Assembly (NCBI RefSeq): GCF_003610695.1
Contig: NZ_RAQH01000001.1
Span: 682,001 to 746,000, forward strand
DNA length: 64,000 bases
From: Epilithonimonas arachidiradicis
GTDB lineage: Bacteria > Bacteroidota > Bacteroidia > Flavobacteriales > Weeksellaceae
Reading direction: 5' to 3'
Below are positions 37,673 through 57,367 of this stretch, piece after piece (the first letter of the stretch is position 1; each line of letters opens with the position of its first letter). A model generated the notes under the pieces. The model was given only the letters and a program-made list of their open reading frames with translations, made no database searches and was not told where the DNA came from. A program made the translations under genes and the position numbers.

Positions 37673-38185
37673 TTATGGTTTCCAAAAGGACCAAACTGTT
37701 CCGTTGTAGACAGCAAGTTGTTTTTTTACGGTGTCATAAGCCATCATTCCGGGGGCCGGATTAATAATATTAATATGAGGGCTTGCAACTTTTGGTAAAA
37801 TCATGGCCTTATTGCTATCAGAAAGAACCAAAATCCCGGTACTTGTATCAGACGTATTATTACCAATTATTGTTTTAGCAGTGGTCATTTCTGACTTCGA
37901 TTGCTGGATCGAGATGTCGGATTGCCCGGTGGTGTCAATACTCAAATCAAACCAGCTTCCGTTTTTCAGGTATTTCATTTTGTGGTCGGTAACATCGTAG
38001 ATGACTGTTCCGTTCTCTGTAATACCTGTTTTTGTTTCTACATAAGGAATTATTAATCCTTTGTTTTCGGTATCGGCAAATTCCAGCGATACTGAGTTAT
38101 TGGTAACGCTGGTTTTCCCAATGGCTACTTGAGATTTAATAACGATTGTTATAAAAATCAATACTACTCCTAAATTTTTTTTCAT
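37673..38185 (-). CDS. Small secreted protein with two GL..V/GxxxYDT modules
   Basis: It has 170 residues with signal peptide MKKNLGVVLIFITIVIKSQVA. Two related segments follow: NKGLIIPYVE...GTVIYDVTDHKMKYLKNGSWF (around 36-82) and AMILPKVASPH...GMMAYDTVKKQLAVYNGTVWSFW, the C-terminus. It is a clear paralogue of the 172-residue protein at 45158-45676. The same motif also ends the two largest proteins in this locus. It is the last gene downstream of the 1980-residue protein. An ATG at 38218 would place 11 extra residues before the signal peptide, so 38185 is preferred. Confidence 0.8.
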   Translation of the reverse strand: MKKNLGVVLIFITIVIKSQVAIGKTSVTNNSVSLEFADTENKGLIIPYVETKTGITENGTVIYDVTDHKMKYLKNGSWFDLSIDTTGQSDISIQQSKSEMTTAKTIIGNNTSDTSTGILVLSDSNKAMILPKVASPHINIINPAPGMMAYDTVKKQLAVYNGTVWSFWKP

Positions 38186-38248
38186 TGTACTGTTTTTAGA
38201 ATCTGTTATTTTCATCACACTGTTTTTATCATAATTAATTGTGTTTAT

Positions 38249-41200
38249 TTAATCCGGGCATGTTTGTGTTGAGATACAATACCAATGATAGCTGACGCCA
38301 TTATCTGTAGAGGTGTACATTTTCAAACAATGATTAGTAGTATCATAAACTACCATTCCTTCTACAAAGTCCGTTGACGGTATTCCTGTAGGAACATCTG
38401 GCGTTGAAGGGTTGCCATCAGCATCGCTGAACGCAACTCTGTTCACAACCAATCCTTTTGTTTTAGCTTCTAATGCTATCCAGCCTCCTTTTCTTACCAT
38501 TGGCCAATTGTCTGCGTCTGTTTCACCGGCTCTTGCCAGAGAAGTTATACCGACTTTGGTATCTAATAGGGTTCCGCCAGTTATTGCACCAGGTTTATAG
38601 CAAGCACAGGACGCACCACCCGCAATTACTATTGGATCGGAGGTGTATAAACAACCATTGGTATTAGTATAAGCTACGGTATAGCTGCCAAGAGCGGTAG
38701 CAATATAATTTTGTGAAGTAGCTCCCGGGATGACAGCATTATCTTTGTACCATTGTATGTTTGAAGCCAATGATGAGGTTAATGTCACAGATATAGGATT
38801 AGTAGAGCAAACCGTAACCGTTCCATTAACAGCCGCAGGATTAGAGGCTATCACTGGAGTCTGGACTCCAAAAGCTTCCTGAAGGCTGGTCATTCCATAG
38901 ACCTGCCCCGAGGTAGGAGCATTCAATACATTAGCTGATAGAGACATTGTACCGGCTGAGAATGTAAGTTTTCTTACGGTATTATCGGTGAATCCACCAT
39001 AAATATCGCCCCCAACTTGTGCCATTCCAAACATTAGTTCGGAAACACCGGACGCGTCAGCATAGATGTTTTGAATACCAGTAACATTGTAAGAACCATC
39101 TAATGCAAGTTCATAGATATAATTTTCATAAGAACTATTCAGCATTGAGGCATATACTTTTCCTTCAAAAAGAATAAAGTCTCCACCAGAAATTGCTGCA
39201 TTAGGATCAACAATGTTATACCAATTGCTCAGAGTGTAATTATTACCCGTTATTGTAACTCTTTGTATTAGTGTATTGAAATTATTTCCTAATAAGCCGG
39301 TACCATCCGGTAAGAAAGAAAGAGAATTGCTACCTGCAGATAATTCTGTGGTTCCGGTATTTGTAAGCCTCGTAAAAGTACAATTAGCAGTATTGAATCT
39401 ATAAAAATATGATTTTCCCTCGGTATAATTATAATTAACGGTATACATAGTGCCATTGGTGTCATAGCCAATATCAAAGACACCTTCGTCTACGGTATAA
39501 AAATTATCACAAATCAATCTAGCTACTCCTGTGTTAACATCCGCTGCATATAGTTTGTCGTCATCAGTATGATACCAAACGACAGGATCACAGGCAGTTA
39601 TTGCTTTTATGTCGGTGTCTGTAGCAGTATTATTGCTCAGGTTAGTGTCCGATGTTGAAGCAGGTGCAGTTATTGTTGCGGTATTAGTCAAGTTCCCGGT
39701 AAATGTAAGAGGAATAGTAATCGTTACGGTGTAAGTTACGGTACCACCTACTGGTAATGATACAATATCGTTGATAGCTCCTGTTCCTGCTCCTGTAATG
39801 TTAGTTACGCTTCCGCTGGATGCAACAGCCGTGTAAGTCATATTGGCATTAGGAATGCCGGTTGGTATGGCATCAGTAACGGTTGCATTCTGAACACCAA
39901 AAGGTCCGTTATTACCTACAACTACTGTATAAACGGTACTGGATCCTGGTGTGTAAAACTGTGTATTGTCAGTTTTTGTAACATAGAGATCGGCATCAAA
40001 AGTGATAGGTGCAGTAACACAATGTGCACCATCATTTGTGCCACTGGATGGTGAATCTGATATTCTGAATCTTGCACCGGTAACGGTGTCTATTCTATAA
40101 AAACCGCCGTTATTATCGGCGCCAAAAATACCATTTGGGCTACCGAACATAGCACCGAAAGCTACAGTTCCTGTTGCGGGTCCTATAAATGTAACTACAC
40201 CTGTAGAAGGATCGATAGATACTGTTCTTCCATCAATATTTACGGCGTACAGTTTTCCATCATTTACGTTATAAGCCAGATCGGAGATTTGTAACCCTTG
40301 AGATAACGTAACTGTAGTGGCGGTTCTGGTTGTGACATTGACTTTATACATAATAGTGACACCTGATCCTGTAGGGGTTACATAGTAATTTCCCTGATCA
40401 TCAAATTCTCCTGTGTTATAAGAGATGGTTGTACTTGCCGGCATTCCTGTGATATCTCCCAATTCAGCATAGGTTCCATCATTATTGATTTTGATCAATG
40501 TTCTGGATCCGTTTTTCATGCCATACATGCCTCCGCCTACAGGATCGATTCCAATACCATTATATTGTATTGCGGAAGCGACTCCAATTGGAGGATAGGT
40601 AAATGGATTGGTCGATTTATCTATAAGATAAAGCTGCGTATTGCTATTCTGAGACAGATAGAGATTAGTGTTACAGCTTATAGAGAGATCAGGACATCCT
40701 GTATTCACAATATTGACCTGGGCGGTATTGGATCTCGCAGTACATCCGGCTGTTGTTATCTGAACAAAATAATACAATGTTCCAAGTGTGCTGGATGGTG
40801 GGATGTATGTAGATGTAGTTGCTCCACTGATTAGAGTTCCGCCAACATTGGTATTGGTCGTGTTATAATACCATTGATAAGCTGTAGCAGCAGGAGATGT
40901 AATCACACCTAATGTGTTAGCCGGTGTGTTCTGGCATACGGTCTGTGCATTTAGATTTTCTACTGATATCCCATTGACAACAACAGATCTTACATTGGAT
41001 GGTGTGGAACAGCCTGTAGTAGTACTGGTAATAACAGCATAGTAATAAGTTGTGCCTCCCTTTGTGGATGGAGGGGTAAAAGTGGCTGAAGTTGCTCCCG
41101 CTATTGGTGTTCCTCCCGTATTACTGTTAGTGGTATTGCTGTACCATTGATAAGTAACGCCTGTTCCCGCTACACTAAGGGATGTTGTTGCAGCATTTTG

Positions 41201-44191
41201 ACAAACAGTTTGAGAGCTTGCTGCCGGATTACTTGTAAACGTAGGATTGGCATTGACTGTCACAGGCGTCCTAGGGGATGATGTAACTGTACAGGTACCA
41301 TTCCCAACTGTCACATAATAGTATCGTGTAGCAAACGCAGTTGTTGTAGGGATGGTATAAGAAGCAGAAGTAGCTCCGGTGACTGTAGTTATAGTACCAC
41401 CTGTAGCTGCATTGCTGTAAAACCATTGGTATGTAGTTGCACCTGTTGCAGTAACTGTTAATGTTGCGCCAGAGCTGTTCAGGCAAAGGTTTTGTGGTGT
41501 AGAATTTGGCTGTGTAGTAATGGCAAGTTCCGGAAGTACGTTAACTCCTCTTACATTGGAAGCCGCTGTACATCCGGTAGTCGTATTGGTAATAACAGCG
41601 TAATAGTAAGTTGTCCCGGCAGTCGTAGAAGACGGTGTGTAGGATGCGGATGTTGCTCCGGAAATAGGAGTTCCTCCCACATTACTATTAGTAGTGTTAC
41701 GATACCATTGGTAAGTGTTTCCTGCTGCAGCGGCTACGGTTAGTGTAGTCACTGTACCATTAAGACAGACTGTCTGTGTACCAGCTGTTAGGTTAGTCGT
41801 AAAAGTAGGATTGGCATTGACTGTCACAGGTGTTCTAGGTGACGATGTAACTGTACAGGTACCATTACCAACTGTCACGTAATAATATCGTGTAGCAAAT
41901 GCAGTCGTTGTAGGGATTGTATAAGAAGCAGAAGTAGCTCCGGTTACGGTTGTTAAAGTTCCGCCTGTAGCTGCGTTGCTGTAAAACCATTGGTATGTAG
42001 TTGCGCCTGCTGCAGTAACGGTTAACGTTGGTCCGATACTGTTCACACAAAGATTCTGTGGTGTAGAATTGGGCTGTGTTGTGATAGCCAATTCCGGAAG
42101 TACAATCACGCCCCTCACATTGGATGTAGCAGTACACCCGGTAGTTGTATTGGTAATAACAGCGTAATAGTAAGTTGTTCCGGTAGTTGTAGATGGCGGT
42201 GTGTAGGATGCGGATGTTGCTCCGGAAATAGGAGTTCCGCCTGTATTACTGTTGGTAGTGTTGCTGTACCATTGGTAAGTGTTTCCTGCCGGAGCTGCAA
42301 CGGTTAATGCAGTCACTGTACCATTAAGGCAGACTGTTTGTGTGCCGGCTGTTAGGTTGGTCGTAAAAGTAGGATTCGCATTGACTGTCACAGGTGTTCT
42401 GGGGTTTGATGTAACCGTACAGGTTCCATTGCCTACTGTCACATAATAATATCGTGTAGCAAATGCTGTCGTTGTAGGGATGGTATAAGAAGCGGAAGTA
42501 GCGCCTGTTACTGTAGTTATAGTACCACCTGTAGCAGCATTACTGTAAAACCATTGGTAAGTGGTTGCTCCCGTTGCAGTAACGGTTAATGTTGGTCCGG
42601 TACTGTTCACACAAAGATTCTGTGGTGTAGAATTGGGCTGTGTGGTAATAGCCAATTCCGGAAGTACAGTAACGCCTCTCACATTGGATGTGGCAGTACA
42701 CCCGGTAGTTGTATTGGTAATAACGGCATAATAGTAGGTGGTTCCTGCAACATTTGTAGGAGGAGTGAAGGTTCCTGAAGTTGCACCTGCTATTAGTGTT
42801 CCTCCTGTATTAGAGTTTGTAGTGTTGCTATACCATTGGTAGGTATTTCCTGCCGCTGCTGCTACTGTTAAGTTGGTCGGTGTGCCATTGAGACAAACGG
42901 TTTGTGTACTGGCCGCAGGATTACTTGTAAATGTAGGATTAGCATTAACAGTTACAGGCGTTCTGGGATAGGTGCTTGCCGTACCACACGAAGTTTCCAC
43001 AGTCACGAAATAGTAGCGGGTGGCAAATGTTGCAGTTGTAGGCGGAGTGTAGCTGGCAGATGTCGCACCGGCAACTGTGGTAATCGTTCCGCCATCGGCG
43101 GCATCGCTGTAATACCATTGGTAGGATGTAGCTCCCGTTGCGGTAACACTTAGAGGTGCTGGAGTCACATTCTGACATAGATTTCTTGGCGTACTGCCTG
43201 GTTGTGAAGTGATACAGCTGGTTGAGGTATTTCCTAATGAAAAGCTTAATGTAACGACATCTGCTTCCACAGCAGAGGTGTTAGAAGCTGCCCAGGCAGT
43301 AGTAGCAGGGTCACCTCCGTCACCTTTCAGGTAGACCCTAAATGTCAATGTTGTGATACCAGTACCATTGATTCTTACCGAACCACTTCCCGAGTTATCA
43401 GTTCCTGATGAATTAAAAACTGTAGCTGTATTGTTGATATTGGTACCGCTGACAGCAAAAACATTAGAACCGGATAATCGGGTTAAGGTTACGGGAGTAT
43501 TCGAGGATATAAGATCATATTGTTGCGAAAAACCCAGGGCACCATAAAAGCCTCCCATTCCCCCAATATGTAGGGTAGGATTATTGACAGCTTGACTAAA
43601 GGTCACTACAAGATCAGTCATCCGATATGTACCATTTGTGGCTAAAGCTGCGGCACGCAATGGGGATGTGTTGGTAGCAAAAATGACCCCATAGTTATTG
43701 GCAGGATCGATACCGGTACCTGTAGCTGCATTACTAGATGTAAACCAATTAGATGAAGGGGCCCCGTAGCTATTTAATGCTTGTAATATAGGCGTGGCAC
43801 CAGTAGTAGTATGTCCAAAGTTGGCAGCCTGGTTGGTTGAAATGGTTGATAATGTGTACTGCTGATTGATCAATTGGAAAGATGCTGTAACAGCAGGGGT
43901 ATAGGTCTGGAAAGTATTCCCATTAGGGTTATCAATATTATACCGGAATCTGATACTCGTATTTTGAGCAGGTCCATTAGTTGCGGTAGGGTTACTATCC
44001 CCAGCAGCGAATTCTAAAGATTGAGTTTGGGCAGAAGACCAAATACCTAGCGTAAGGAAGAGTAGGACATATATTTTATTATGGTTATTATATGCTTTTG
44101 TGACAGCTTTTGCTGTATCACGGCCAAATACCATTAGTAATACCATTCGGAATGCTGCAAATCGGAATAGTGCAGAATAGATTTTAACCAT
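38249..44191 (-). CDS. Giant secreted Ig-like repeat protein (1980 aa)
   Basis: The long N-terminal extension ends in a hydrophobic export segment (KIYVLLFLTLGIWSSAQ). A beta-rich head follows, then paired Ig-like modules at about 330-1090, including three 188-residue tandem units. Next come a further Ig-like part, a propeller-like region at about 1160-1395 (GGGMYGMKNGSRTLIKIN), a DUF11 domain at about 1400-1520 (YTPGSSTVYTVVVGNNGP), a second propeller-like segment and a final Ig-like domain. The last ~120 residues (CACYKPGA... to the terminal CPD) are shared with the 2255-residue protein. It is probably a surface adhesin. No T9SS CTD is visible. I recognise domains, not a function. Confidence 0.85.
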   Translation of the reverse strand: MVKIYSALFRFAAFRMVLLMVFGRDTAKAVTKAYNNHNKIYVLLFLTLGIWSSAQTQSLEFAAGDSNPTATNGPAQNTSIRFRYNIDNPNGNTFQTYTPAVTASFQLINQQYTLSTISTNQAANFGHTTTGATPILQALNSYGAPSSNWFTSSNAATGTGIDPANNYGVIFATNTSPLRAAALATNGTYRMTDLVVTFSQAVNNPTLHIGGMGGFYGALGFSQQYDLISSNTPVTLTRLSGSNVFAVSGTNINNTATVFNSSGTDNSGSGSVRINGTGITTLTFRVYLKGDGGDPATTAWAASNTSAVEADVVTLSFSLGNTSTSCITSQPGSTPRNLCQNVTPAPLSVTATGATSYQWYYSDAADGGTITTVAGATSASYTPPTTATFATRYYFVTVETSCGTASTYPRTPVTVNANPTFTSNPAASTQTVCLNGTPTNLTVAAAAGNTYQWYSNTTNSNTGGTLIAGATSGTFTPPTNVAGTTYYYAVITNTTTGCTATSNVRGVTVLPELAITTQPNSTPQNLCVNSTGPTLTVTATGATTYQWFYSNAATGGTITTVTGATSASYTIPTTTAFATRYYYVTVGNGTCTVTSNPRTPVTVNANPTFTTNLTAGTQTVCLNGTVTALTVAAPAGNTYQWYSNTTNSNTGGTPISGATSASYTPPSTTTGTTYYYAVITNTTTGCTATSNVRGVIVLPELAITTQPNSTPQNLCVNSIGPTLTVTAAGATTYQWFYSNAATGGTLTTVTGATSASYTIPTTTAFATRYYYVTVGNGTCTVTSSPRTPVTVNANPTFTTNLTAGTQTVCLNGTVTTLTVAAAAGNTYQWYRNTTNSNVGGTPISGATSASYTPSSTTAGTTYYYAVITNTTTGCTAASNVRGVNVLPELAITTQPNSTPQNLCLNSSGATLTVTATGATTYQWFYSNAATGGTITTVTGATSASYTIPTTTAFATRYYYVTVGNGTCTVTSSPRTPVTVNANPTFTSNPAASSQTVCQNAATTSLSVAGTGVTYQWYSNTTNSNTGGTPIAGATSATFTPPSTKGGTTYYYAVITSTTTGCSTPSNVRSVVVNGISVENLNAQTVCQNTPANTLGVITSPAATAYQWYYNTTNTNVGGTLISGATTSTYIPPSSTLGTLYYFVQITTAGCTARSNTAQVNIVNTGCPDLSISCNTNLYLSQNSNTQLYLIDKSTNPFTYPPIGVASAIQYNGIGIDPVGGGMYGMKNGSRTLIKINNDGTYAELGDITGMPASTTISYNTGEFDDQGNYYVTPTGSGVTIMYKVNVTTRTATTVTLSQGLQISDLAYNVNDGKLYAVNIDGRTVSIDPSTGVVTFIGPATGTVAFGAMFGSPNGIFGADNNGGFYRIDTVTGARFRISDSPSSGTNDGAHCVTAPITFDADLYVTKTDNTQFYTPGSSTVYTVVVGNNGPFGVQNATVTDAIPTGIPNANMTYTAVASSGSVTNITGAGTGAINDIVSLPVGGTVTYTVTITIPLTFTGNLTNTATITAPASTSDTNLSNNTATDTDIKAITACDPVVWYHTDDDKLYAADVNTGVARLICDNFYTVDEGVFDIGYDTNGTMYTVNYNYTEGKSYFYRFNTANCTFTRLTNTGTTELSAGSNSLSFLPDGTGLLGNNFNTLIQRVTITGNNYTLSNWYNIVDPNAAISGGDFILFEGKVYASMLNSSYENYIYELALDGSYNVTGIQNIYADASGVSELMFGMAQVGGDIYGGFTDNTVRKLTFSAGTMSLSANVLNAPTSGQVYGMTSLQEAFGVQTPVIASNPAAVNGTVTVCSTNPISVTLTSSLASNIQWYKDNAVIPGATSQNYIATALGSYTVAYTNTNGCLYTSDPIVIAGGASCACYKPGAITGGTLLDTKVGITSLARAGETDADNWPMVRKGGWIALEAKTKGLVVNRVAFSDADGNPSTPDVPTGIPSTDFVEGMVVYDTTNHCLKMYTSTDNGVSYHWYCISTQTCPD
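41241..42933 (-). repeat. Three 564-bp tandem repeats in the 1980-residue gene
   Basis: The landmark gtagga...gcattgactgtcacagg occurs at 41241, 41805 and 42369, and a slightly more divergent copy at 42933; each spacing is exactly 564 bp (188 codons). The units differ mostly at scattered bases. Each encodes two Ig-like domains with the motifs QWYSNTTNSNTGG and YQWFYSNAATGG. Confidence 0.9.
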
Positions 44192-44724
44192 AATTATTTT
44201 TTTTAACAGTATAATTGGGAAAAAGATATGAAGGTAGCCCTTCTGCTATTTCATAGTTCGGACAAAAATTAGAGATAAGAAAAGATAATTTGAATCCATT
44301 CAGTATCCTAAAGCTAATAACGACAGTAGCAATAATCTATCTAAAATATAGACCTGCCTAGCCTATAAAATATTTTCGTAAAAAGTCTGGGGAGCGGGTG
44401 GAGAATTAACTCCCTTTTGATGGGTTGAGTAGTTGTTTGTCCATTGTGATTCGTTTTTTCAAGTTATTTTTTGTTTGTATTAATGGTAGTTTTTTAGAAA
44501 GCGTTTTGTACAGCACAACAAGCACTATGATGAAAGAAAGTTGGATCTACCTTCAGTTTAGAAACGAGATCCAACTTAAAGTATTGATCACTTGTGTTTT
44601 CATTATTTTGATTTTTGATCATTGTGCAATTAGAACAGTCATTTTATGGTATACAAATATTACTATAAGAAGCGATAAAATACAATTAATGTATAGAAGA
44701 ATTACGGAATTTATTCGTCTAAAA

Positions 44725-44761
44725 TAGAAGCCATTTTTTGCAACGCAAAAAATGGCTTCTA
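44725..44761. repeat. Perfect 17-bp hairpin
   Basis: The arms TAGAAGCCATTTTTTGC and GCAAAAAATGGCTTCTA are separated by aac. No T run follows on either side. It could be a transcription stop or a structured element. Confidence 0.6.
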
Positions 44762-45000
44762 CAAATAAGTTGTACTGATTATTAACTAGTTATGTTAAAT
44801 TGAAATAGTGATTTTAGAGGTGTTGTTTTTGGGAATTTCACATTAAAAAAATGATATGATTATGGATGTGAAAAAAAATGTGAAATATAGTTGTAATTAT
44901 ATTGAATTAATCGTTATATGTGTGCTTAATAGAAGAATTTGAAATATTAGATATCCACAGTTCCAAAGCTTTATTCTGATATGAAAATAACAAATAAGAC

Positions 45001-45113
45001 GCTTCGATTCCGCTTTTCTCTATTCATAAAGTTATATCTGTCTTGAAAAGAGAAAGTTATACTGAGCTAAATTAATGAGATCTCTCACAAATTTGACATC
45101 GCAGAATCGAAGC
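45001..45113. repeat. Inverted-repeat element, MITE-like
   Basis: Perfect 10-bp terminal arms (gcttcgattc / gaatcgaagc), extending to about 13 bp with one mismatch, enclose 113 bp. A nested cttttctct...agagaaag pairing and a doubled aaagttata lie inside. There is no coding capacity. It could be a non-autonomous mobile element or a structured RNA. Confidence 0.4.
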
Positions 45114-45157
45114 ATCGAGGTTTTATAATTTAGATTTGGATTAAGCAGAAATGGTTC

Positions 45158-45676
45158 CTAGGGCTTCCAAAAGGACCAGACTGTCCCGTTATACACGGCA
45201 AGCTGCTTCTTGGTGGTGTCATAAACCATCATTCCCGGTGCAGGATTGATGATATTAAGGTGCGGGCTGGCTACTCTTGGAAGGATCATGGCTTTGTTGG
45301 CATCAGACAAAACCAGAATACCATTGCTATCCATTGCCGTATTGGTTCCAATGGTCGTTTTAGCGGTAGTAAGTTCCGTTTTGGTGGTTTGGATGGCGAT
45401 ATCAGATTTTCCCGTAGTATCTACTGACAGATCAAACCAGCTGTTATCCTTTAAATATTTTACTTTATGATCACTGTTGTCAAAGATGACAGATCCGTTT
45501 TCTGTAATACCCGATTTGTTTTCTATGTATGGGAGTATCAGTCCCTTGTTTTCAGCATCCGAGAATTCCAGAGAAACAGAATTGTTGGTGACACTGGCTT
45601 TTCCAATGGCGACTTGCGATTTAATCCCAATAGCCGCTGCCATCAATAATAATGAAGTTAGAATATTTGTTTTCAT
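45158..45676 (-). CDS. Small secreted protein, paralogue of the 37673-38185 product
   Basis: It has 172 residues with signal peptide MKTNILTSLLLMAAAIGIKSQVA. Its two modules mirror the other small protein closely (NKGLILPYIENKSGITENG, GMMVYDTTKKQLAVYNGTVW). It starts 17 nt after the stop of the 805-residue protein gene, so the two are very likely co-expressed. One reading is that it supplies in trans the C-terminal type of domain missing from that protein. Confidence 0.82.
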   Translation of the reverse strand: MKTNILTSLLLMAAAIGIKSQVAIGKASVTNNSVSLEFSDAENKGLILPYIENKSGITENGSVIFDNSDHKVKYLKDNSWFDLSVDTTGKSDIAIQTTKTELTTAKTTIGTNTAMDSNGILVLSDANKAMILPRVASPHLNIINPAPGMMVYDTTKKQLAVYNGTVWSFWKP

Positions 45677-45693
45677 TTTGTGTTTTATATTGA

Positions 45694-48111: not shown

Positions 48112-48165
48112 TGTGTTGTGTTTTAATAATAAAATAAACGGTTATTTCTATAATTAGAATCTCTA

Positions 48166-51100
48166 TTAATCCGGACAAGTTGGGGTAGAGATACAATACC
48201 ATGCGTAGCTCAAACCATTATCCATAGTAGTATATAGCTTCATACATTTGTTGGTGGTGTCATACACCATCATTCCTTCTACAAAGTTAGCAGGAGCTAT
48301 ACCCACTGGAACGTCCGGTGTAAAAGGATCATTATCCGCATCCGAGAATGCTACACGGTTTGGTACAAAAGCTTTGGTCTTAGATTCCAGAGCTATGTGT
48401 CCACCTTTACGGGTCATTGGCCAGTTATCAGCATCGTTTGTGCCAGCTCTTCCCAAAGCTGAGATACCTACCTTGGTGTCTAGCACAGTGCCTCCGGTTG
48501 TTGCTCCCGGCTTGTAACAAGCACACAGATCGTCAATCGCAACTAATACAGGCGCACCCGCCATAGTGTACGTGTTGGTAGAAGCATTGAAGAAGTAAGG
48601 CCAATAAACGCCTTCACCTACAGCCGCAGAATTATTGACAAGTGTTCCATTCAAATGGTTTCTTGTACTGTACCATACCAATGTAGAACCATCTGGTGGT
48701 GCAGCATATTGTGTCGTGTTAAGATTAACCGTAGGGATATTACAACAAATATTAGTCACCGTAATCAATTTGCTTCCAGGGCTGTAGCAATTGGTAGAAG
48801 TGTTGTAATAGTACACCCAATATTCTGTAGGAGTAGAGGTTACAGATATGTTGGTATTGCTCAACAAGCTAGTTGAAGAAGGTGTTGCTGAAGTATGCCA
48901 TTGGATCACAGAACCTGATGGTGCTGCATTGACATTAAATACTGAGTTCAAATCTCTTGGCTGCGGATCGGCTGGCGCTGTACACGTTGAACATACAGCA
49001 GCTATAACGTTAACTGGGCTGGATGCTGGTGAATAGCAATTACCTGCGGTACTGTAATAGAACGCATAATAGACTCCGGCACCTACAGCGGTAGGATTGG
49101 ATACTGGATCTGTATGGGCTGTATCTCTGAACCATACCAGGCTTGCGTTGGCAGGTATAGTTCCTGTATGCGCATTGTTTAGATTGGCTACTCCACTTGG
49201 ACAAGATGTGAACAGAGGCGAACTTACTGCAGGAGCTATGCTACCTACTGTACAAGCTGCTGTTACATTAACTTGAACAGTTGCTGATGTTGTACCACAT
49301 CCTGAACCGCTGCTTGCCACAACATAGTAGTATAAAGTGCCTAAAGCATTAGTTGGTGGTGTGTAAGTAGAGGATGTAGCTCCAATTATCAGAGTCCCTC
49401 CGGTATTACTATTGTTTGTATTGCTATACCATTGGTAAGTAGTAGCACCTGTTGCTGTAGCTGTAAGATTAGTAGGAGTACTATTAAGGGTTACAGTCTG
49501 CGTTGTCGGGCTTATCGATACAGAAGTAGGATAGGCATTAACTGTAACCGGCGTACGCGGCGATGAGGTTACAGAACCACAAGTTCCCGTTACGATCACG
49601 AAATAATATCTTGTAGCAAAAGCTGCAACAGTAGGCGGTGTGTAAGTGAATGACGTAGCACCAGTAACTGTTGTTACAGATCCGCCTGTTGCGGCATTAC
49701 TGTAATACCATTGATAACTTATTGCATTATTAGCTGTAACGCTTAATTGGGTAGCCGTACCATTCACACAAATGTTTTGCGGCGTGCTATCTGGCTGTGC
49801 AGTAATGGTTGTTGTGTCTACCGTTACATTCACAGGTTGTGATGGCGCAGAATAGCAATTGCCACCCGAGCTATAATAGAAAGCGTAATATGTTCCTGGT
49901 CCTACCGCTGTAGGATCAACTACAGCTGTAGTATGTGTTGCATCTGTAAACCACAATAAAGTACTACCTGATGGTATTGCACCTGTATGTGCTTGTGTAT
50001 TAAGGTTAACAGTACCAGAAGAACAGTTTGCCATTACAGAAGTGTTCACAGCTGGCGTTGTTCCTGCTGCGGAACAAGTCGCAAGCCCAAAGTTATTTGA
50101 ACAGCTGGTTTTATAACCGCTAAATGCTACTGCATAACCTTTCTGTGGCGATACAGGCAAAGTCTGGTAACTGTTAGCAGGCAGAGGTTCTGCAAGCTGT
50201 ACAATATAATTAACAGTTGGTATAGACTGTATTGCTACATTATCGATATAAAAGAAGTGATTGCCAGCTCCTGTTGTTCTGAAACGAATGGTCGTACCTG
50301 CAGTCACAACCGAAGCCGGGATATTATAAACCTTTTTCCCGTTTGTGTATCCTGTAGTACTATATAATGAACCGAGAGTTGTCCAAGGTCCTGTAGCGCT
50401 TGGTGCTACCTCTACTAACAGTGTTTTATATGGAAGGCCATCCAGGTTGGCAGTTCTGTAATCAAATGACAACAAGGCATTAGTAACAGGTGCACTCACA
50501 GATCTTCTGATGGCTACGGCAGTATTTCCTGTAATACGAAGCTCGCCCGTAACTATCTGGATGTTTCCTGCAGTTGCAGATGTTGTTTCACCTTCTTCTA
50601 TCCAGTTGGTAGACCATCCTGTTCCTGCACTGTAGCTGGCCGTAGCAAAATCATGGGAAGCCTGGGTAGTTGGTGTAGGTGTAGCACGATCAAAAACGTA
50701 TGCGCCGGTATTAGTGGTAGTTACAGATTCTACGGGAGTGTTCTCAGAAGTGTCTAATACACCATTACCATTAGCATCAAGATATAGATTAACCGTATGG
50801 GCAATTCCGCCTTCTCCGTTGTCGTTAGCACCATTCTTGTTGGCATCGTCAAATATTTTACCTGTCAGGATATGCTTCATCTCAGCATCAAGACAGCCTA
50901 CGTTTACAGTTACAACAGCGGTGCTGCATAATGATCTGTCAGAATTACAAACCTGGTAGTTAAAAGTATCGGTTCCAGAGAACCCAGGGTTTGGTGTATA
51001 AGTTACCGTTCCGTCCGGGTTGACTACTACTGTTCCATTTGTTGGTTGAGACACTATAGTAACAGTAGTTGGAGATACTCTTCCTACATCATTGTTCAGG

Positions 51101-54100
51101 ATATCTATAGTTACTGGGATGTTAGGATAGGTTTGAGATTGGTCGTCGTTTGCAAATATTACAAAATCTACACATTGAGGATCCAATGTAAATCCTGCAT
51201 CCAATGTAGTAGCTCCACTTACTGCAGCAACAGATGAATCCTGGCCATAAACAGCGGAGATTGGTGTCCCGTCACAAGTAAAGAAGGACATACCTCCGTT
51301 TCCTGTGCTGGTAAAAACCTTTTGTGCTTGTAGCTCCGAGAGCGTGTAGGCCGCATCATACTTCAGACCGCAAGGACTTGTCGATCCTGGCGCTGTACTT
51401 ATGACACTGCCAGTATATTTAACATATACTGTGGTACTCTTGGTAGGAGTGATCCATACCGGATTAGCAGCTCCGGCAGAAGCCATGCCTGGTGCCCAAG
51501 CTGTCGTTGTAAAGTTCGTCAGTTGTTCTCCAGGAATCATATTAAATGCCCAGTCATAAGCTAAACCATTAGCATCAGCATCTACGATTGTGACAGCTGT
51601 ATAGCTTTTCCCGTTAGCGCTCTCAAACTTATAAGCAGTGGCTTGATTCATCTCCAAAGATGTATAACCCTTGGCTGGAATTATGATGCTGCCATTGCCT
51701 CCAAGTCCATTTTTCCAATTCACTGTTATATCTTCATTTAAACTGTTTGTGAATACTGCGTATACAGGTGCAGTAGTCAAGGTTGTGTAAACAGGAGAGT
51801 AGTAGGTGCTTCCATAAAAGTTACCTGGCAGCAATGGAATATTTCTGGTTCCATAGTTATCTATCCCCCCAAAAACAAGATCTACACCCACCGGTTTGTT
51901 ACTGGTGATCACAGCTCCGGATTTTATATCATTTGACTTGTTTGTATCTCTGGTTTTATTACCTGGGGGTGGGCCAGCTGTTCCTTCATAGAACCATACC
52001 ATTCCTTCTGCAAGTGTTGGCGATGTAACATCTACCACGCCATCTCCATTATAATCCAGTTGTACTATAGTACCGTTCTCTGACGCTCTTACAAATAGAG
52101 AAGTATAGTCGAAAACTGTAGTCGCAATATTAGGATTTAATAGAGAGCTAATATTCTCTCCAAAAGGAACTACGAACAATCGCCCGAATTTGTTGGTATC
52201 GATCACATTACCTTTGGTATTTTGTACAGCAAAAGTGGCATCACTACCTGTAACTTTGGTGAGGGTCAGTAGTTTGGTAGAATATATTTTGTCTCTACCA
52301 TCATATTGTATTGTGGTTTCGGTAGGGGTTCTGCCATCTCCTGTTCTGTAGGGATTGTTATTATCTAATGTAATGATAGCCCCTTCCGGAAAAATATCTG
52401 TCGGATATCCGGGAGCAACACCGTTGGAGGTGTTTCCGTCTCCCCAGATTTCCGTAGTAGTTTGTGTACGCGTTCCTGCTGTAGGCTCATAACCATCTTC
52501 CCAATGGTCATAATAAATAAGTGTGTTAGAGTAATTGGCTCTGATACCAATAATCCTTCTGGCATTGGTAGTATTATTACTTACTGCATCACTTCCCGCA
52601 CTCATTAGTGCTTTTTTCAGTTCCGCATTTTCCGGGAAAGGCAGATAAAACGTTTTAGGTAAGCCGGCGGTACTACATACGTCAGTCAGGTTGGCCTCAA
52701 TAGTAACTGTTACCGTAGCCTGACTGCATGCGCCTGAAGGACCAGTACATACCCTATAGACAAATGTATCCGTTCCTGCAAAATCACCATTAGGTAAATA
52801 GGTCACTATTCCTCCTGCACCAATCTGTACACTACCGTTTGCAGGTTGTGTTGCAATGGTTAATGTAGTAGGATCAGGGCTGCAAAGGTCATTGGTTAAA
52901 ACATTGATCACTAATGGTGTAGCAGACGGTCCCGTAGCAGCATCTGCTACTGCTTGGATTGCTGCTGTGCTTACTGTGAAAGTAGAAGAGGCTGTTGTAC
53001 TACATCCGCTTGCTATTGCAGTTATCGTTGAGGTTCCGATCCAGTTGGCGGCATAGGTTACCTCACCTGTTGCAGGGTTGATGGTTGGCTGCGTTCCTGT
53101 ACCGGTATTTGTAATAGTGTATGTTATACTGTCTGCGTTGGTAGATGTAGCGGTATAAGTTACCGTGTCTGCTCCTGTACATCTTTGAGTTGACAAAGAG
53201 CTATTAAATACCGGAGTAGCAGGCGCAGGAGCTACAGTTACTGTAAACGTTGCTGTTCCTGGTGTACCGCAACCGCCATTATCAGTTGCTGTTATAACAG
53301 CAGTCCCTGACCAGGACGCATTATACGTAACAGCACCCGTGGCACTATCGATCGTTCCTGCTGCAGCAGGTGTAAGGCTATAAGAAACACTTCCTCCGGA
53401 AGACGTAGCTGTGTAGGTTACCGTTCCAGCACCTTGACATCTATTGGTTGGTAAACCTGTATTAAACACAGGTGTTCCAGCTGTTGTAATGGCATTAGCT
53501 CCACATACATTAACAGGGGCAGTGGTATAATAATAAGGTACTCTTGTTGCATTGACAGTATTAGAACCATCTCCTGCATTGCCATAATATTGATTTCCTG
53601 CAAAGCCAAAATTCTGTGTACAGGCTTTGATAACAATAGTAAAGTTGGCACCAGATTCTATTGCCAGCATTCGATCTGTGTTAGGGCTTCCCGGATCAAT
53701 ACCTACATTCGGGGCGCTACTGATACCAGTCGAACGTAGCTTACCTTGATAATTGGTTCCCCAGTTATATACCTGCCCGGTTGTTGTAAGAACATTGATT
53801 GCCTGATAAGAATCATAATGTTCTGAAGGGGAAATCCAACGAATATTATTCATCGCAGCACCCGATGCGGAAGTGTATTTGGGTTGTATCCATGATGTTC
53901 GGGTGGCGGTTGTCCAATCCCCTAGTTGTCTGTTTGCATTATCTCCCATAGCATAAAGATTGCCATCAGTATATAATACATAATAACTACCAATAAAGCT
54001 TGTCATTCCTATCATTTTGATAACGCCTGCAGGGTTAGGCAAAGTCATTTTGGTTGCCCTGTTTCTGGTCGCATAGGCTGTACCATCACCCAAATAAGTG

Positions 54101-54933
54101 TAGCTTCCCCAAGTCCATAGTGTACCATCACCAAGCAAGGCAATAAGATTGTTTGGTCCACCTCTTAGGGCTGCCACATTGTTCAAAGTAGGATTGCCAG
54201 ACTCTGCGGTAGTTACGCGGTTCCAGGTATGGTTTGCGGTCGACAAACCAACACCTGCTACGCTGGCAGTTTGTGTTAATACCCATGCTTCCCCGTTACA
54301 AGTCAGCAATGCCAATGTATCGGAAGTACCAAATAAACTCTTAACGTTTCCTGGCTCCACCCCTTGTGGTAGACCATAAGTATTACTCCCTGCTATGGTC
54401 ACTGGCCCCATAGAGGCAGTTGATTTTACAGTGGTAGATAGCATGGAACCAGTATTACCCCAGGCATATAAACCTTGTGTTGTTAGTACAACGGCCTGGT
54501 TACCTCCAATAGCAGCTTTTAAAACTGTACCTTGCAGACCGGGAAAGTTAGTGCTATTAATTATTAAAGGACTGAGTACATTACTGAAACCATCGCTGGC
54601 CATACCATAGCCAAATACTTTGAATGTACCATCAGATTCCTTAATGATTGTATTATTATTGCCAGAAATTATATTATCATACTCAATACTAGCAGCGTCA
54701 TTATTAGAGTTAAGCCCATAATTACTGTTACATCCCGTGACACACTGTGCTTGGGCATACGGAATACCAGCAAAAAGCATCATCGAGAATAATAGCAATT
54801 GTAATTTCGGGATATCACGATCTTTGCGATGAAACCATCGGAATAATTCAAGCGCCAGAAAAAAGAGATTCTCCAACCCTTTATTTGTGCTTTTTAAATG
54901 TTTTATCATCATAGTGTTATTGTTTGTCATCAT
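48166..54933 (-). CDS. Giant secreted multidomain protein (2255 aa) with RCC1-like head
   Basis: A long N-terminal extension precedes the signal segment (LQLLLFSMMLFAGIPYAQAQ). An RCC1-like propeller at about 80-460 shows LYAWGNTG, LWTWGSYTYLGDGT, LYAMGDNANRQLGDWT and VYNWGTNYQGKL. Then come Ig-like and cadherin-like domains (VTIDILNNDVGRVSPTTVTI) and a large middle region. An SdrD-B-like domain follows (TGKIFDDANKNGANDNGEGG), then paired Ig modules like those of the 1980-residue protein. Four degenerate units resembling LLWFTDATHT...YYAFYY...NCYS come next. The end is the ~120-residue Cys-bounded domain CACYKPGAT... to CPD. It is the first gene of the minus-strand locus and probably a surface adhesin. 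No T9SS CTD is seen. Confidence 0.85.
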   Translation of the reverse strand: MMTNNNTMMIKHLKSTNKGLENLFFLALELFRWFHRKDRDIPKLQLLLFSMMLFAGIPYAQAQCVTGCNSNYGLNSNNDAASIEYDNIISGNNNTIIKESDGTFKVFGYGMASDGFSNVLSPLIINSTNFPGLQGTVLKAAIGGNQAVVLTTQGLYAWGNTGSMLSTTVKSTASMGPVTIAGSNTYGLPQGVEPGNVKSLFGTSDTLALLTCNGEAWVLTQTASVAGVGLSTANHTWNRVTTAESGNPTLNNVAALRGGPNNLIALLGDGTLWTWGSYTYLGDGTAYATRNRATKMTLPNPAGVIKMIGMTSFIGSYYVLYTDGNLYAMGDNANRQLGDWTTATRTSWIQPKYTSASGAAMNNIRWISPSEHYDSYQAINVLTTTGQVYNWGTNYQGKLRSTGISSAPNVGIDPGSPNTDRMLAIESGANFTIVIKACTQNFGFAGNQYYGNAGDGSNTVNATRVPYYYTTAPVNVCGANAITTAGTPVFNTGLPTNRCQGAGTVTYTATSSGGSVSYSLTPAAAGTIDSATGAVTYNASWSGTAVITATDNGGCGTPGTATFTVTVAPAPATPVFNSSLSTQRCTGADTVTYTATSTNADSITYTITNTGTGTQPTINPATGEVTYAANWIGTSTITAIASGCSTTASSTFTVSTAAIQAVADAATGPSATPLVINVLTNDLCSPDPTTLTIATQPANGSVQIGAGGIVTYLPNGDFAGTDTFVYRVCTGPSGACSQATVTVTIEANLTDVCSTAGLPKTFYLPFPENAELKKALMSAGSDAVSNNTTNARRIIGIRANYSNTLIYYDHWEDGYEPTAGTRTQTTTEIWGDGNTSNGVAPGYPTDIFPEGAIITLDNNNPYRTGDGRTPTETTIQYDGRDKIYSTKLLTLTKVTGSDATFAVQNTKGNVIDTNKFGRLFVVPFGENISSLLNPNIATTVFDYTSLFVRASENGTIVQLDYNGDGVVDVTSPTLAEGMVWFYEGTAGPPPGNKTRDTNKSNDIKSGAVITSNKPVGVDLVFGGIDNYGTRNIPLLPGNFYGSTYYSPVYTTLTTAPVYAVFTNSLNEDITVNWKNGLGGNGSIIIPAKGYTSLEMNQATAYKFESANGKSYTAVTIVDADANGLAYDWAFNMIPGEQLTNFTTTAWAPGMASAGAANPVWITPTKSTTVYVKYTGSVISTAPGSTSPCGLKYDAAYTLSELQAQKVFTSTGNGGMSFFTCDGTPISAVYGQDSSVAAVSGATTLDAGFTLDPQCVDFVIFANDDQSQTYPNIPVTIDILNNDVGRVSPTTVTIVSQPTNGTVVVNPDGTVTYTPNPGFSGTDTFNYQVCNSDRSLCSTAVVTVNVGCLDAEMKHILTGKIFDDANKNGANDNGEGGIAHTVNLYLDANGNGVLDTSENTPVESVTTTNTGAYVFDRATPTPTTQASHDFATASYSAGTGWSTNWIEEGETTSATAGNIQIVTGELRITGNTAVAIRRSVSAPVTNALLSFDYRTANLDGLPYKTLLVEVAPSATGPWTTLGSLYSTTGYTNGKKVYNIPASVVTAGTTIRFRTTGAGNHFFYIDNVAIQSIPTVNYIVQLAEPLPANSYQTLPVSPQKGYAVAFSGYKTSCSNNFGLATCSAAGTTPAVNTSVMANCSSGTVNLNTQAHTGAIPSGSTLLWFTDATHTTAVVDPTAVGPGTYYAFYYSSGGNCYSAPSQPVNVTVDTTTITAQPDSTPQNICVNGTATQLSVTANNAISYQWYYSNAATGGSVTTVTGATSFTYTPPTVAAFATRYYFVIVTGTCGSVTSSPRTPVTVNAYPTSVSISPTTQTVTLNSTPTNLTATATGATTYQWYSNTNNSNTGGTLIIGATSSTYTPPTNALGTLYYYVVASSGSGCGTTSATVQVNVTAACTVGSIAPAVSSPLFTSCPSGVANLNNAHTGTIPANASLVWFRDTAHTDPVSNPTAVGAGVYYAFYYSTAGNCYSPASSPVNVIAAVCSTCTAPADPQPRDLNSVFNVNAAPSGSVIQWHTSATPSSTSLLSNTNISVTSTPTEYWVYYYNTSTNCYSPGSKLITVTNICCNIPTVNLNTTQYAAPPDGSTLVWYSTRNHLNGTLVNNSAAVGEGVYWPYFFNASTNTYTMAGAPVLVAIDDLCACYKPGATTGGTVLDTKVGISALGRAGTNDADNWPMTRKGGHIALESKTKAFVPNRVAFSDADNDPFTPDVPVGIAPANFVEGMMVYDTTNKCMKLYTTMDNGLSYAWYCISTPTCPD

Positions 54934-55473
54934 TTATTGTAGATATTACCACCTTTAATTATTATACTTAATGTAAAATAATTTAGATTTTGCAATAATG
55001 GAGGGATAGAAATCCCCCCAAAAAATAGTCGTAGGATTTATCTCATTCCGATAGAATAAGATATTGGCAATTAAGCAGTCTTAGAGATGCCGCTTGAATA
55101 AATTTTCGAAGAAAAAATAGTGATTAATCATTTGCGTGTGTTTTTTGTGTTTTTTATTACTAATGATTTTAACAATTTTCGATATTGTTAAACAAAAGCG
55201 TACAAAGAAACTTAGATTATAGAAATCTATATAACTTGTAGTGTGTTTTTTTCTGGAAATTCTAACTGCAGAATAGCTGTAGATAAGGCTTTTATTATCA
55301 TTTGTGTTTGTTTTTTGTTGTGTTTTTATGTAAATCTATTAAATAACTTGATTTTATAAAATGATTTATTCAATGCAAAGATAAATATATCTACGGATTG
55401 GACAATACTTTTTTTAATAAAAAATATTTTTTTTATCAGTTTATTGTTTGACTATTAAACGAGTAGGCATTTT
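54934..55473. other. Long 5' leader region upstream of the giant-protein genes
   Basis: 540 bp without a gene, between the 2255-residue gene and the AraC-type gene, both on the minus strand. It holds the promoter described at 55376-55405 and therefore a leader of about 440 nt. A hairpin lies at about 55166-55191 (TTTAACAAT...ATTGTTAAA). A GGGAT/ATCCC hairpin lies near 55000. No small gene is supported. Confidence 0.5.
55376..55405 (-). promoter_or_regulatory. Putative promoter of the giant-protein operon
   Basis: On the minus strand TTG, exactly 19 nt, then TATCTTTG: a very good match to the Bacteroidetes sigma-A consensus. It reads towards the 2255-residue gene, about 440 nt away. Confidence 0.6.
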
Positions 55474-56439
55474 TTATGTCTGATTATCGGAGTTATTTTC
55501 TTTTTTGAGATGAGCAATGAAGTAGGATGGCGATATGCCTGTTTCTTTTTTGAATGCTAAGACGAATTCTTCTCGGGATGAGAAACCGCATTCTTTTGCC
55601 AGTGAGCTGATCTTGTATTCTCTGTAGACAGAATTTTTATAGATCATTTCTGTGATGTAAGCGATGCGTAATCCATTGATGTAATCCACAAATCTTTTGT
55701 CCTTATGCAGCTCCAATATTTCAGAAAGGTATATTTTGTTGGTATCGACATCATTTGCCAATTCTGATAAGCTGATATCTGATCTAAGATATTTTTGTGT
55801 TTTTTCAAATTGTGCAAGCCCTGACAATACTTGGCTTACCGTTTCTTCAGGAATGAGCATTGGTTTAGAGTGATCATCAGAATCTTTTGTTTCTTCCTTG
55901 TAATTATCATCGGTAGATTCTGTTGGGTAATTTTTAGTATCCTCTGCTGTTGACTTATTTTTTCTAAAGAAAAATATTAATAATATAATAGGCAGGGTAA
56001 TACTTAGAAATAATAAAAATGGTAGGAAGTATTCTTTTGGATAACCGTTGTGAGTTTTTAGATCTGCGTCACTATTGGTTGTCAGTCCGGGCTGATCTTT
56101 GGATTCAGAGAATATAATTTGATAATTGGAGCTTAACCCTTTTTCAAGTCTGCTTTTATTGATCGCCTTCAAAAGATTCTTATTGGCCAGGATTTGTTTT
56201 GATTTTTCCTGATCAACAACCGTAACAAAAACATGCGTTTCTGTAATGATAAGCAAGGTATCTTTTTTAAGGATAGGTTTTACATGATTGTTATTTCCGG
56301 CTCCGGAAGATTTCGGATGTTCTTTGTCCGAATTTAGATACGGAGTGGCTTCGAGAGCGCCGAAAGTAAAGAGTAGAATAATGCTGAACAAGACTTTCCT
56401 GTCTAAAAGATTCAAGATCTTATTTCCCATTTTCTCCAA
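55474..56439 (-). CDS. Membrane-anchored AraC-type regulator (321 aa)
   Basis: The N-terminal hydrophobic segment (VLFSIILLFTFGALEATPYL) is followed by a polar domain of about 95 residues, probably periplasmic. A helix at about 136-158 (YFLPFLLFLSITLPIILLIFFF) and a charged linker come next. The C-terminal AraC-type double helix-turn-helix is at about 220-315 (SELANDVDTNKIYLSEILEL, SSLAKECGFSSREEFVLAFK). It probably senses an envelope signal and binds DNA from the membrane. It is a paralogue of the divergent 56663-57367 gene. It lies upstream of the giant-protein genes on the same strand, so it is the best candidate for their regulator. Confidence 0.85.
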   Translation of the reverse strand: MEKMGNKILNLLDRKVLFSIILLFTFGALEATPYLNSDKEHPKSSGAGNNNHVKPILKKDTLLIITETHVFVTVVDQEKSKQILANKNLLKAINKSRLEKGLSSNYQIIFSESKDQPGLTTNSDADLKTHNGYPKEYFLPFLLFLSITLPIILLIFFFRKNKSTAEDTKNYPTESTDDNYKEETKDSDDHSKPMLIPEETVSQVLSGLAQFEKTQKYLRSDISLSELANDVDTNKIYLSEILELHKDKRFVDYINGLRIAYITEMIYKNSVYREYKISSLAKECGFSSREEFVLAFKKETGISPSYFIAHLKKENNSDNQT

Positions 56440-56647
56440 CCTACTTGTGTTTTTTTTTCAATATTATTGTAACAAAACGGATGTCACAATTGTATTATAG
56501 AATGATTACGGAAATAATGCTGTTATAAAACGAACACTGATTTATAGTTTGTACAAGTAAAGGATATTGATTATCAATGGTATATGTAAGGAGTAATTAT
56601 TGTAAGAAATAAAGTAATGTTTTGAATGCTTTTTTTTTCAGATTTCA

Positions 56648-56655
56648 TATTTTTG
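56648..56655 (+). promoter_or_regulatory. Putative -7 element of the 234-residue regulator gene
   Basis: TATTTTTG, 7 nt before the ATG at 56663; the transcript would be nearly leaderless. The upstream TTTG at 56621-56624 is a little far for a -33 element. Confidence 0.4.
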
Positions 56656-56662
56656 TATTGTT

Positions 56663-57367
56663 ATGGATCTGAAAAAAGTGCTTTTCTTAATTTATTTTCT
56701 TACAACGCCATTTTCTCTAGGAGGGCAAACTGTTATTTCAGAGTTTGGTGAGGCGGATGAAAATTCAGAGAAAACGATGATGATCGCTTTTGTTGCGATT
56801 GTAATTTTTTTAGCCCTAATATTATTGATACTGATCATAAAACGAAATAAAAAAAATACAGCGAATTATAATAAGCTTATTGAACGGCTAAAAACTAATG
56901 AAGCGAATTCGGATTCAGACATTAAAATGGACTTTGCTGATGATGAAGATCACGCAGAAAGTAAAAGCCAGGATCAGTCAAAAATTGTTAACATATCTAC
57001 AGATACGGAGAAGAAGCTTCTGAAAAAGCTTGCTGTTTTCGAAGAATCAGAAAGATTTTTGAGAAAAGATATCAGCCTGACTTCTATGTCACATTCAAAG
57101 GGGACTAATCCGAAATATCTGTCAAAAATTATCCGTACCCATAAGAATAACAATTTCAGCGGTTATATTAATAGCTTAAGAATTAATTACATTGTTCAGA
57201 AGCTATATAATGACCCAAAATACAGAGAGTATAAAATCAGTTACCTGGCTGATGAATGTGGTTATACGTCTTCTCAGGTTTTTGTTATTGCTTTCAAAAA
57301 AGAAACAGGGTTTACACCTTCTTATTTTATAGAGCAAATCAAATTGGAACAAATAGTATATAAATAA
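56663..57367 (+). CDS. Membrane-anchored AraC-type regulator (234 aa)
   Basis: The N-terminal hydrophobic segment is MDLKKVLFLIYFLTTPFSLG. Only a short polar stretch (about 25 residues) precedes the helix at about 38-60 (MMIAFVAIVIFLALILLILI). A charged linker leads to the AraC-type helix-turn-helix at about 130-230 (MSHSKGTNPKYLSKIIRT, SYLADECGYTSSQVFVIAF). Its C-terminal domain closely matches that of the divergent 321-residue regulator (YREYKIS..LA.ECG, FKKETG.PSYFI). With almost no periplasmic part it may act as a partner or modulator of the longer one. Confidence 0.85.
   Translation: MDLKKVLFLIYFLTTPFSLGGQTVISEFGEADENSEKTMMIAFVAIVIFLALILLILIIKRNKKNTANYNKLIERLKTNEANSDSDIKMDFADDEDHAESKSQDQSKIVNISTDTEKKLLKKLAVFEESERFLRKDISLTSMSHSKGTNPKYLSKIIRTHKNNNFSGYINSLRINYIVQKLYNDPKYREYKISYLADECGYTSSQVFVIAFKKETGFTPSYFIEQIKLEQIVYK

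Follow-up and report, generated by a model that had tools for sequence, protein, structure and literature searches.

Genes and Features of the Locus

The window analyzed here comprises 64,000 nucleotides of the Epilithonimonas arachidiradicis genome (contig NZ_RAQH01000001.1, positions 682,001 to 746,000). It contains genes for two giant proteins (E and B), a further export-type protein (D), two small proteins (C and A) and two regulators (R1 and R2), as summarized in Table 1. The original prediction described five consecutive genes for secreted proteins, and all five open reading frames indeed lie on one strand. Their N-termini resemble signal peptides by eye, and both giants also pass a hydrophobicity rule, with the hydrophobic core beginning only at residue ~45 and ~39, in agreement with the predicted export. 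The description of three of these proteins as very large fits the 2255- and 1980-aa products but is generous for the 805-aa D. Intergenic gaps of 54 bp (E-D), 17 bp (D-C) and 30 bp (B-A) suggest two transcription units, E-D-C and B-A, which are 966 bp apart. For A, the likelier start, by eye, is an in-frame ATG located 11 codons further along, near position 38185.

Table 1. Features of the locus, with positions in the window.
Feature	Position	Strand	Basis
R2, 234-aa shorter paralogue of R1, with AraC domain and membrane helix but next to no periplasmic part	56663..57367	+	HTH_18
R1, 321-aa AraC-type regulator: ~100-aa periplasmic stretch, one membrane helix (by eye)	55474..56439	-	HTH_18
24-bp direct repeat, copy 2	55295..55318	+	genome-wide consensus pattern match
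24-bp direct repeat, copy 1, within R1-E gap	55125..55148	+	genome-wide consensus pattern match
E, 2255-aa giant: RCC1-like region, two Big_9 stretches, CTD at end	48166..54933	-	ORF and domain matches
CTD of E: 119 aa, four conserved Cys	48169..48525	-	260.8 bits
D, 805 aa, export-type, PKD-like, without CTD	45694..48111	-	domain matches
C, 172-aa predicted partner: signal peptide and two tandem modules	45158..45676	-	ORF and module homology
B, 1980-aa giant: nine Ig_7 stretches, DUF6923, DUF11, CTD at end	38249..44191	-	ORF and domain matches
CTD of B	38252..38608	-	261.6 bits
A, 181-aa predicted partner of B	37673..38218	-	ORF called from GTG

The C-Terminal Tail Domain

Both giants terminate in a tail domain of ~119 aa (here referred to as CTD) that is 75% identical between them. 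The predicted sharing of modules and end motifs was borne out for these ends and for the two small proteins, which are 74% identical to each other and homologous to the giant ends, but not for D, which has no such end and was rejected as a CTD family member. In 10 named Chryseobacterium loci, the homologue of D forms part of a CTD-bearing protein (774-2504 aa). Four cysteines of the CTD are near-invariant, each being missing from at most one of 51 family members, and in the genus CTD-bearing reading frames reach 3680 aa. Among the tail proteins of 40 regions and the window, the match to the CTD ends at most 21 residues before the stop, with the exception of L047, which has 112 further residues beyond it; alignment A5 is without L047, L079 and one L075 row. 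A signal-peptide rule, based on hydrophobicity and cleavage criteria rather than on a trained predictor, was passed by 44 of 46 complete CTD members of at least 300 aa (L061 and L065 fail), a count that omits L079, open reading frames running off a locus and those below 300 aa.

The 51 C-terminal members scanned reached the cut-off of no Pfam or NCBIfam model and, at E<=0.1, matched none of the models for known type A or type B T9SS tails (0/51); at E<=0.01 whole E and B matched neither TIGR04183 or PF18962 (type A) nor TIGR04131 or PF13585 (type B). Because of this absence of model matches, the CTD was ruled out as a T9SS domain of type A or type B. No NCBIfam match to a ChiA-type tail (type C, cl41395) was obtained in the 51 members either, from a library that may hold no type C model.

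Small Partner Proteins Encoded Beside the Tail

Partners A and C consist of a signal peptide followed by two copies of the module that forms the second half of the CTD, leaving a mature protein of ~150 aa. The apparent invariance of a Gln at the mature N-terminus carries no weight, as the rows of alignment A4 begin at that residue by construction. Homology is detected between the two partner halves (E 3e-9) and between the CTD and the first (7.7e-7) or second half (1.9e-16). The partners reached no Pfam or NCBIfam model cut-off in the copies searched, and PorP-family matches were absent from 50 partners (0/50) and, in the window, from D, C, A, R1, R2 and three flanking genes.

Tail and partner are tightly paired. 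Among the matches listed for 23 genomes of the genus, a same-strand partner lies within 6 kb downstream of 122 of 125 CTDs and within 300 bp for 113 of them (matches under about 55 bits, mostly one model matching the other family, were dropped, and one of the 125 tails is a 51-codon remnant); a crude estimate puts the chance of such pairing at ~2e-4 per CTD. These genomes hold 1-12 copies of the giant and partner pair. Outside the genus, the partner is the next gene downstream in 7/7 loci of the family (5 genomes, 2 genera), a count from which L081 and L098, both repeats of the window, are omitted. When named genomes were searched from the partner, the CTD alignment lacking a conserved stretch, a CTD was found upstream in the flank of 62 of 80 named loci (the best 80 of 271), rising to 74 once the misses were followed, with no CTD shown nearby for the other 6; the pairing also persists where the order of tail and partner is inverted. 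Tails and partners diverged together over 49 pairs (Mantel r 0.77, against a largest value of 0.34 in 5000 permutations; L079, one L075 row and unpaired tails omitted), a correlation that would also arise from joint duplication without binding. By its sequence, the locus carries two copies of a recurrent two-gene cassette, made up of a giant with a CTD and a cognate partner of two modules.

Regulators and the Upstream Repeat

The regulators R1 and R2 are, as originally described, two paralogous membrane-anchored proteins of AraC type, with 42% identity over 185 residues, HTH_18 matches above cut-off and, by eye, a membrane helix following the N-terminus. They share the AraC domain and membrane helix with the TPR-membrane-AraC regulators of Flavobacteriales found at L046 and L048, but have no TPR match at E<=0.01, and R2 has almost no periplasmic part; in the L048 regulator itself, TPR_12 is matched below threshold (E 4.3e-5). 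The gene order R2-R1-E-D-C is kept in the close relatives G021 and G022, where the counterparts of E are 90 and 96% identical, respectively. To this extent the idea of a dedicated, regulated 20-kb system stands, but what is conserved is the pair of giant and partner, which frequently has no regulator of this kind nearby. In G020 and G009 (the giant of G009 being broken), the corresponding giant has a longer TPR-membrane-AraC regulator upstream of it, and for relatives of E in G006 and G002 (identities of 85 and 81%, respectively, both over 1603 aa) no such regulator was found within the 20 kb examined. Nor did the locus prove to be a single system: in G022 the counterpart of the B-A pair lies across an SDR gene cluster, on its other side, and the repeated promoter element precedes only E.

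Regulators of AraC or LuxR type were denser close to such genes (22 in 232 kb) than at a greater distance (6 in 368 kb), in a count whose models derive from regulators in the vicinity of tail genes, in which orthologous loci enter more than once and some matches are short fragments. Such a regulator was present in 17 of 80 named loci (~3.5 kb either side; the best 80 of 271). Regulators are a recurrent, not an obligatory, neighbour of the CTD cassettes.

The consensus of the 24-bp repeat has two zero-mismatch sites genome-wide, both in the gap between R1 and E, while a third site differs from it by 2 mismatches; with E alone preceded by it, the repeat was rejected as a mark of all cassettes in the genome. 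Related copies precede the counterparts of E in G021 and G022, and L040 and L055 likewise contain a 14-bp core. Judging by position, R1 and R2 probably control E-D-C by way of the repeats ahead of E. Scans of the window for a Bacteroidota-type promoter pattern gave six sites vs. 3.4 expected, none of them before E or B; 53 sigma-70 promoter-like sites were found vs. 58.1 expected, and 18 terminator-like sites vs. 13.6. Rfam matches were three tRNAs and one Flavo-1 RNA, all outside the locus.

Distribution and Association With the T9SS

The CTD was found in 150 of 197 genomes of the family and, outside the order, in at least one genome, that of Sphingobacterium psychroaquaticum, which also has SprA. 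E. arachidiradicis itself encodes SprA. The distribution of the CTD follows this T9SS core gene: among near-complete genomes of the family it was present in 143 of 180 SprA-positive vs. 0 of 7 SprA-negative ones, and as the latter represent two genera only, shared ancestry may explain the association. The CTD is carried by two incomplete SprA-negative genomes, G012 (73% complete) and G386 (76% complete). It is not a core feature, since 37 SprA-positive near-complete genomes are without it.

Comparison With Known Systems and Predicted Structures

The closest functional parallel is the type B T9SS tail with a PorP/SprF-like shuttle, for which PMC12618676 and PMC9143113 give the precedents SprB-SprF and Fjoh_3952-Fjoh_3951. 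The two arrangements have in common large adhesin-like substrates, a C-terminal signal domain of ~100 aa, a cognate partner gene commonly directly downstream and matched substrate-partner pairs. They differ in that the CTD matches no type B model and has four conserved cysteines, and in that its partner has no PorP-family match and is a small two-module protein whose modules share homology with the tail. Type A tails (TIGR04183, PF18962) are likewise C-terminal and abundant in the same genome (114 matches), but show no sequence match to the CTD; according to PMC12618676 they are all served by one shuttle, PorV, whereas each tail described here has its own neighbouring partner. The CTD tail and its partner are undescribed in the excerpts of open-access literature among the matches listed.

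Structure models of partner and CTD (the latter poor, pLDDT 62.5) had no match at E<=0.001 in a Foldseek search of the PDB, with weak best E-values of 0.18 and 0.38. Against known structures, VIA gave weak best Z-scores of 3.7 and 3.9, mostly to trimerisation modules, and the partner model had 16 matches among predicted viral proteins at E<=0.001, the best at 4.5e-6, their TM-scores being low. Each partner half and the second half of the CTD align over ~45 residues with modules such as the N-terminus of Mtd, CBA120 TSP3/TSP4 and collagen XV/XVIII, with Z of only 2-4. The known modules are homotrimers, whereas in this case one chain contains a pair of copies and the other a single one. CTD and partner may, speculatively, assemble a 2+1 pseudo-trimer with a trimerisation-type fold.

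Possible Roles of the Cassette

In each cassette, as the sequence shows, a long export-type protein ends in an uncatalogued CTD, with a small cognate partner encoded beside it. The reading we lean towards, and hold to be somewhat probable, is that the CTD is a T9SS-dependent tail with its own partner, functionally like type B/SprF and unrelated to it in sequence, export and binding both being predicted. A counter-point is that the passage of a soluble partner across the outer membrane is not explained by this reading. A more specific proposal, put forward tentatively, is a further T9SS signal for export or anchoring, mainly in one family, in which a 2+1 pseudo-trimer of phage-fibre trimerisation fold, and not a beta-barrel shuttle, would be recognised for export or surface retention.

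The resemblance of both models, weak as it is, to the modules by which phage spikes, Mtd and collagens trimerise, and of the partner model to viral proteins, would suit a trimer-type structural cap that terminates and joins extracellular fibres and plays no part in outer-membrane passage, with export directed by another signal. No other export signal was found at the ends of E, B or the 51 family members, however, and both the fixed position of the CTD at the C-terminus and its absence from the 7 SprA-negative near-complete genomes argue against such a cap, which we regard as rather unlikely. A separate signal peptide, two modules homologous to the client and tight pairing in cis could also point to the partner being a periplasmic chaperone that completes the CTD fold and is left behind, in the manner of a pilus chaperone. 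That each substrate has one partner, and that the two co-diverge, fits a stoichiometric subunit equally well, and we consider the chaperone improbable; no known chaperone stands out among the weak fold matches listed, which in itself excludes nothing. Ordinary secreted repeat proteins that duplicate, carrying along a small gene with no functional link, would account for giants built from common modules (Ig_7, DUF11, Big_9, RCC1-like) and for the variable number of cassettes among genomes of the genus. The pairing, however, holds for proteins that differ widely in length and content among the matches listed and survives inversion, which makes such passive carriage very improbable.

Under the favoured reading of a T9SS-dependent tail with a cognate partner, the cassette may be an unrecognised route by which these bacteria deliver giant proteins to the cell surface. 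Of the family genomes sampled, roughly three quarters carry the tail, and genomes of the genus have between 1 and 12 copies each; if it is an export signal, these proteins would form a class of surface proteins that is invisible to model-based prediction of T9SS substrates.

The Giant Proteins Share a C-Terminal Tail

The five export-type ORFs of the window, here referred to as E, D, C, B and A, are listed below with the AraC-type, membrane-helix-bearing regulators R1 and R2 and neighboring features.

Features of the window locus and its surroundings.
Feature	Position in window	Strand and order	Length	Content
R2		plus, upstream of E		AraC-type HTH domain
R1		minus, upstream of E		AraC-type HTH domain
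E		minus, first in transcription order	2255 aa	RCC1-like region, two Big_9 stretches
E N-terminus	54745–54933			unusually long N-terminal region; hydrophobic core of the signal peptide begins only at about residue 45
D	45694–48111	minus, second	805 aa	PKD-like domain; tail-less
C		minus, third	172 aa	partner
B		minus, after a 966-bp gap separating it from C	1980 aa	nine Ig_7 stretches, DUF6923, DUF11
B N-terminus	44030–44191			unusually long N-terminal region; hydrophobic core of the signal peptide begins only at about residue 39
A		minus, last	181 aa	partner
tRNA cluster	34072–34363			Leu-Gly-Leu; lies roughly 3.3 kb away from the cassettes
Flavo-1 small RNA	31675–31752	minus		53.7 bits

E and B are 75% identical across their final 119 residues, here referred to as the tail. 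A profile built from both tails had 6 matches in the source genome and, in the genus, matched 23/23 genomes (1 to 12 matches in each), the longest matching open frame being 3680 aa; the ORFs of 49 paired tails spanned 154 to 3349 aa, the extremes being fragments or cut by the locus end. In 40 fetched regions and the window the match ended within 21 residues of the stop, with the sole exception of locus L047, where 112 residues follow. Each of four cysteines in the 51-member tail alignment was present in 50 or 51 members. No T9SS tail model matched any of these 51 tails at E ≤ 0.1 (NCBIfam, Pfam), the few matches obtained being scattered over one or two members apiece, and none matched E, D, C, B, A, R1 or R2 at E ≤ 0.01. 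Type A tail matches number 114 in the source genome, so that this tail forms a second, smaller class there. At the other end, in the long N-terminal region, a related HRK..IPKL stretch is present in the E relatives at L050 and L051.

The small proteins C and A (74% identity), here referred to as partners, carry a signal-peptide-like N-terminus, and two similar halves were found in each of 50 partner relatives (alignment A4). Profile comparisons (half 1 against half 2, E 3e-9; half 1 against tail, 7.7e-7; half 2 against tail, 1.9e-16) show both halves and the tail to share one module, corresponding to the tail's second half. The sole Pfam match of partners was DUF2793, in 36/50 and below cut-off in the member shown, and NCBIfam gave nothing consistent for the 50. 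Weak PHROGs matches were to families of unknown function, less often to tail fibre or virion families.

Tail and Partner Genes Are Paired

Both profiles were searched genome-wide without regard to position, giving 125 tails and 128 partners among the matches listed (23 genomes, weak rows dropped). A same-strand partner lay within 6 kb downstream of 122/125 tails and within 300 bp of 113, with 9 of the 122 farther than 300 bp, E-D-C loci included; within 6 kb, 9 partners lay upstream on the same strand and 6 on the opposite strand. At the three exceptions (L053, L055, L069) the partner was upstream of the tail, and in L053 and L055 it also stands downstream of another tail gene. At family loci outside the genus the partner came next downstream in 7/7 (5 genomes, genera g2 and g3), one of these tails being weak (54 bits).

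From the partner side, 62/80 loci of named genomes (best 80 of 271 relatives) had a tail upstream inside the 3.5-kb flank. Among the 18 misses, a D-like giant with the tail at its far end lay downstream of the partner at L118, L120, L122, L123, L128, L129, L153 and L161, and a tail protein directly downstream at L159 and L160; in genome G020 (L107) the tail was 3.8 kb upstream, and at L182 a tail gene stops just ahead of the partner, whose frame had been mis-called. Six are without explanation (L104, L105, L106, L148, L170 at a contig edge, and L181 with its giant in pieces). Homologues of D form parts of 774–2504-aa tail-bearing Chryseobacterium proteins, and a partner gene stands in front of such proteins at the eight D-like loci and at L159 and L160. 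The E-like giant of L048 (genome G009) and the D-like giant of L181 are each split over several ORFs, decayed or mis-assembled.

Partner and tail distances were correlated (Mantel r 0.77, 49 pairs; permutation maximum 0.34; r 0.57 for distant pairs alone), which would also be expected from joint duplication alone. Sequence analysis establishes the tail, the partner, their module homology and their pairing.

Distribution and Co-occurrence With SprA

Among 296 genomes of the phylum, tail matches above 100 bits were confined to the window's family. Out-of-family matches scored 31–41 bits and covered a half-module, which lay near the C-terminus in 2/11 fetched loci (L086, L090) and elsewhere in the other nine. 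L086, from the same class, encodes a 197-aa export-type protein ending in the half-module (CVKIYNG..WKC), possibly distantly related to the tail; next comes a 492-aa export-type ORF that runs off the end of the locus.

The family includes Elizabethkingia. Tails were present in 150/197 family genomes and SprA, our T9SS marker, in 188/197. All seven near-complete SprA-negative genomes (G337, G338, G357, G358, G372, G382, G390) lacked the tail, both incomplete ones (G012, G386) had it, and 37 near-complete genomes with SprA also lacked it. Within its limits the survey shows co-distribution of tail and SprA genes (Fisher p 2.7e-5 if genomes are independent, the near-complete negatives representing two genera only, g160 and g161). 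According to one report (PMC4961963), Elizabethkingia lacks T9SS.

In Sphingobacterium psychroaquaticum (L139), a member of another order, a tail gene and a partner (65% identity) are separated by 732 bp, which suggests probable horizontal transfer of the cassette into a T9SS-bearing host. SprA is present; since T9SS is common in that order, this co-occurrence carries little weight.

Predicted Structures

The partner model was fair (pLDDT 79.7; 91–94 at residues 111–150) and the tail model poor (62.5) save for its second half. Neither had a confident PDB match. Among the weak matches of a second structural comparison, what we take to be trimerisation modules or their carriers (Mtd N-terminus, TSP3, TSP4, collagen XV/XVIII, P22 tailspike, a trivalent nanobody) made up 18/24 partner and 18/31 tail rows, many being variants of one protein, with unrelated folds of similar Z interspersed; the Mtd match had Z 3.7 over 42 residues. 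At E ≤ 0.001 the partner also matched 16 predicted viral proteins, the best at 4.5e-6, with TM-scores near 0.3. As two partner modules and one tail module make three, we speculate that they could form a 2+1 pseudo-trimer.

Regulators and a Proposed Mechanism

The order R2-R1-E-D-C is conserved in genomes G021 and G022, where E is 90–96% and R1 42–43% identical to its counterparts. In G020 the E counterpart is preceded by a longer TPR-membrane-AraC-like regulator, and two more stand past the partner; in G009 one such regulator is found ahead of the broken counterpart. AraC- or LuxR-type regulators occurred in 17/80 named loci (best 80 of 271) and were commoner near tail genes (22 in 232 kb vs 6 in 368 kb farther off), a count biased by models built from regulators near tail genes, recounted orthologous loci and some short fragments. 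Upstream of E stand two 24-bp repeats, spaced by 170 bp, with no further mismatch-free match in the source genome. Their 14-bp core also lies upstream of LuxR-linked tail clusters (L040, L055; G021 and G020).

The type B tail is the nearest working precedent; the gene of its cognate SprF-like shuttle commonly follows directly downstream, according to two papers (PMC12618676, PMC9143113). The present tails matched neither the type A nor the type B sequence models, and the partner falls outside the PorP family, unlike the type B shuttle; the tail-partner system is therefore not a member of type B. It would operate likewise. The partner would bind the tail, the tail-bearing giant would be exported T9SS-dependently and retained at the surface, and R1 and R2 may control the locus.
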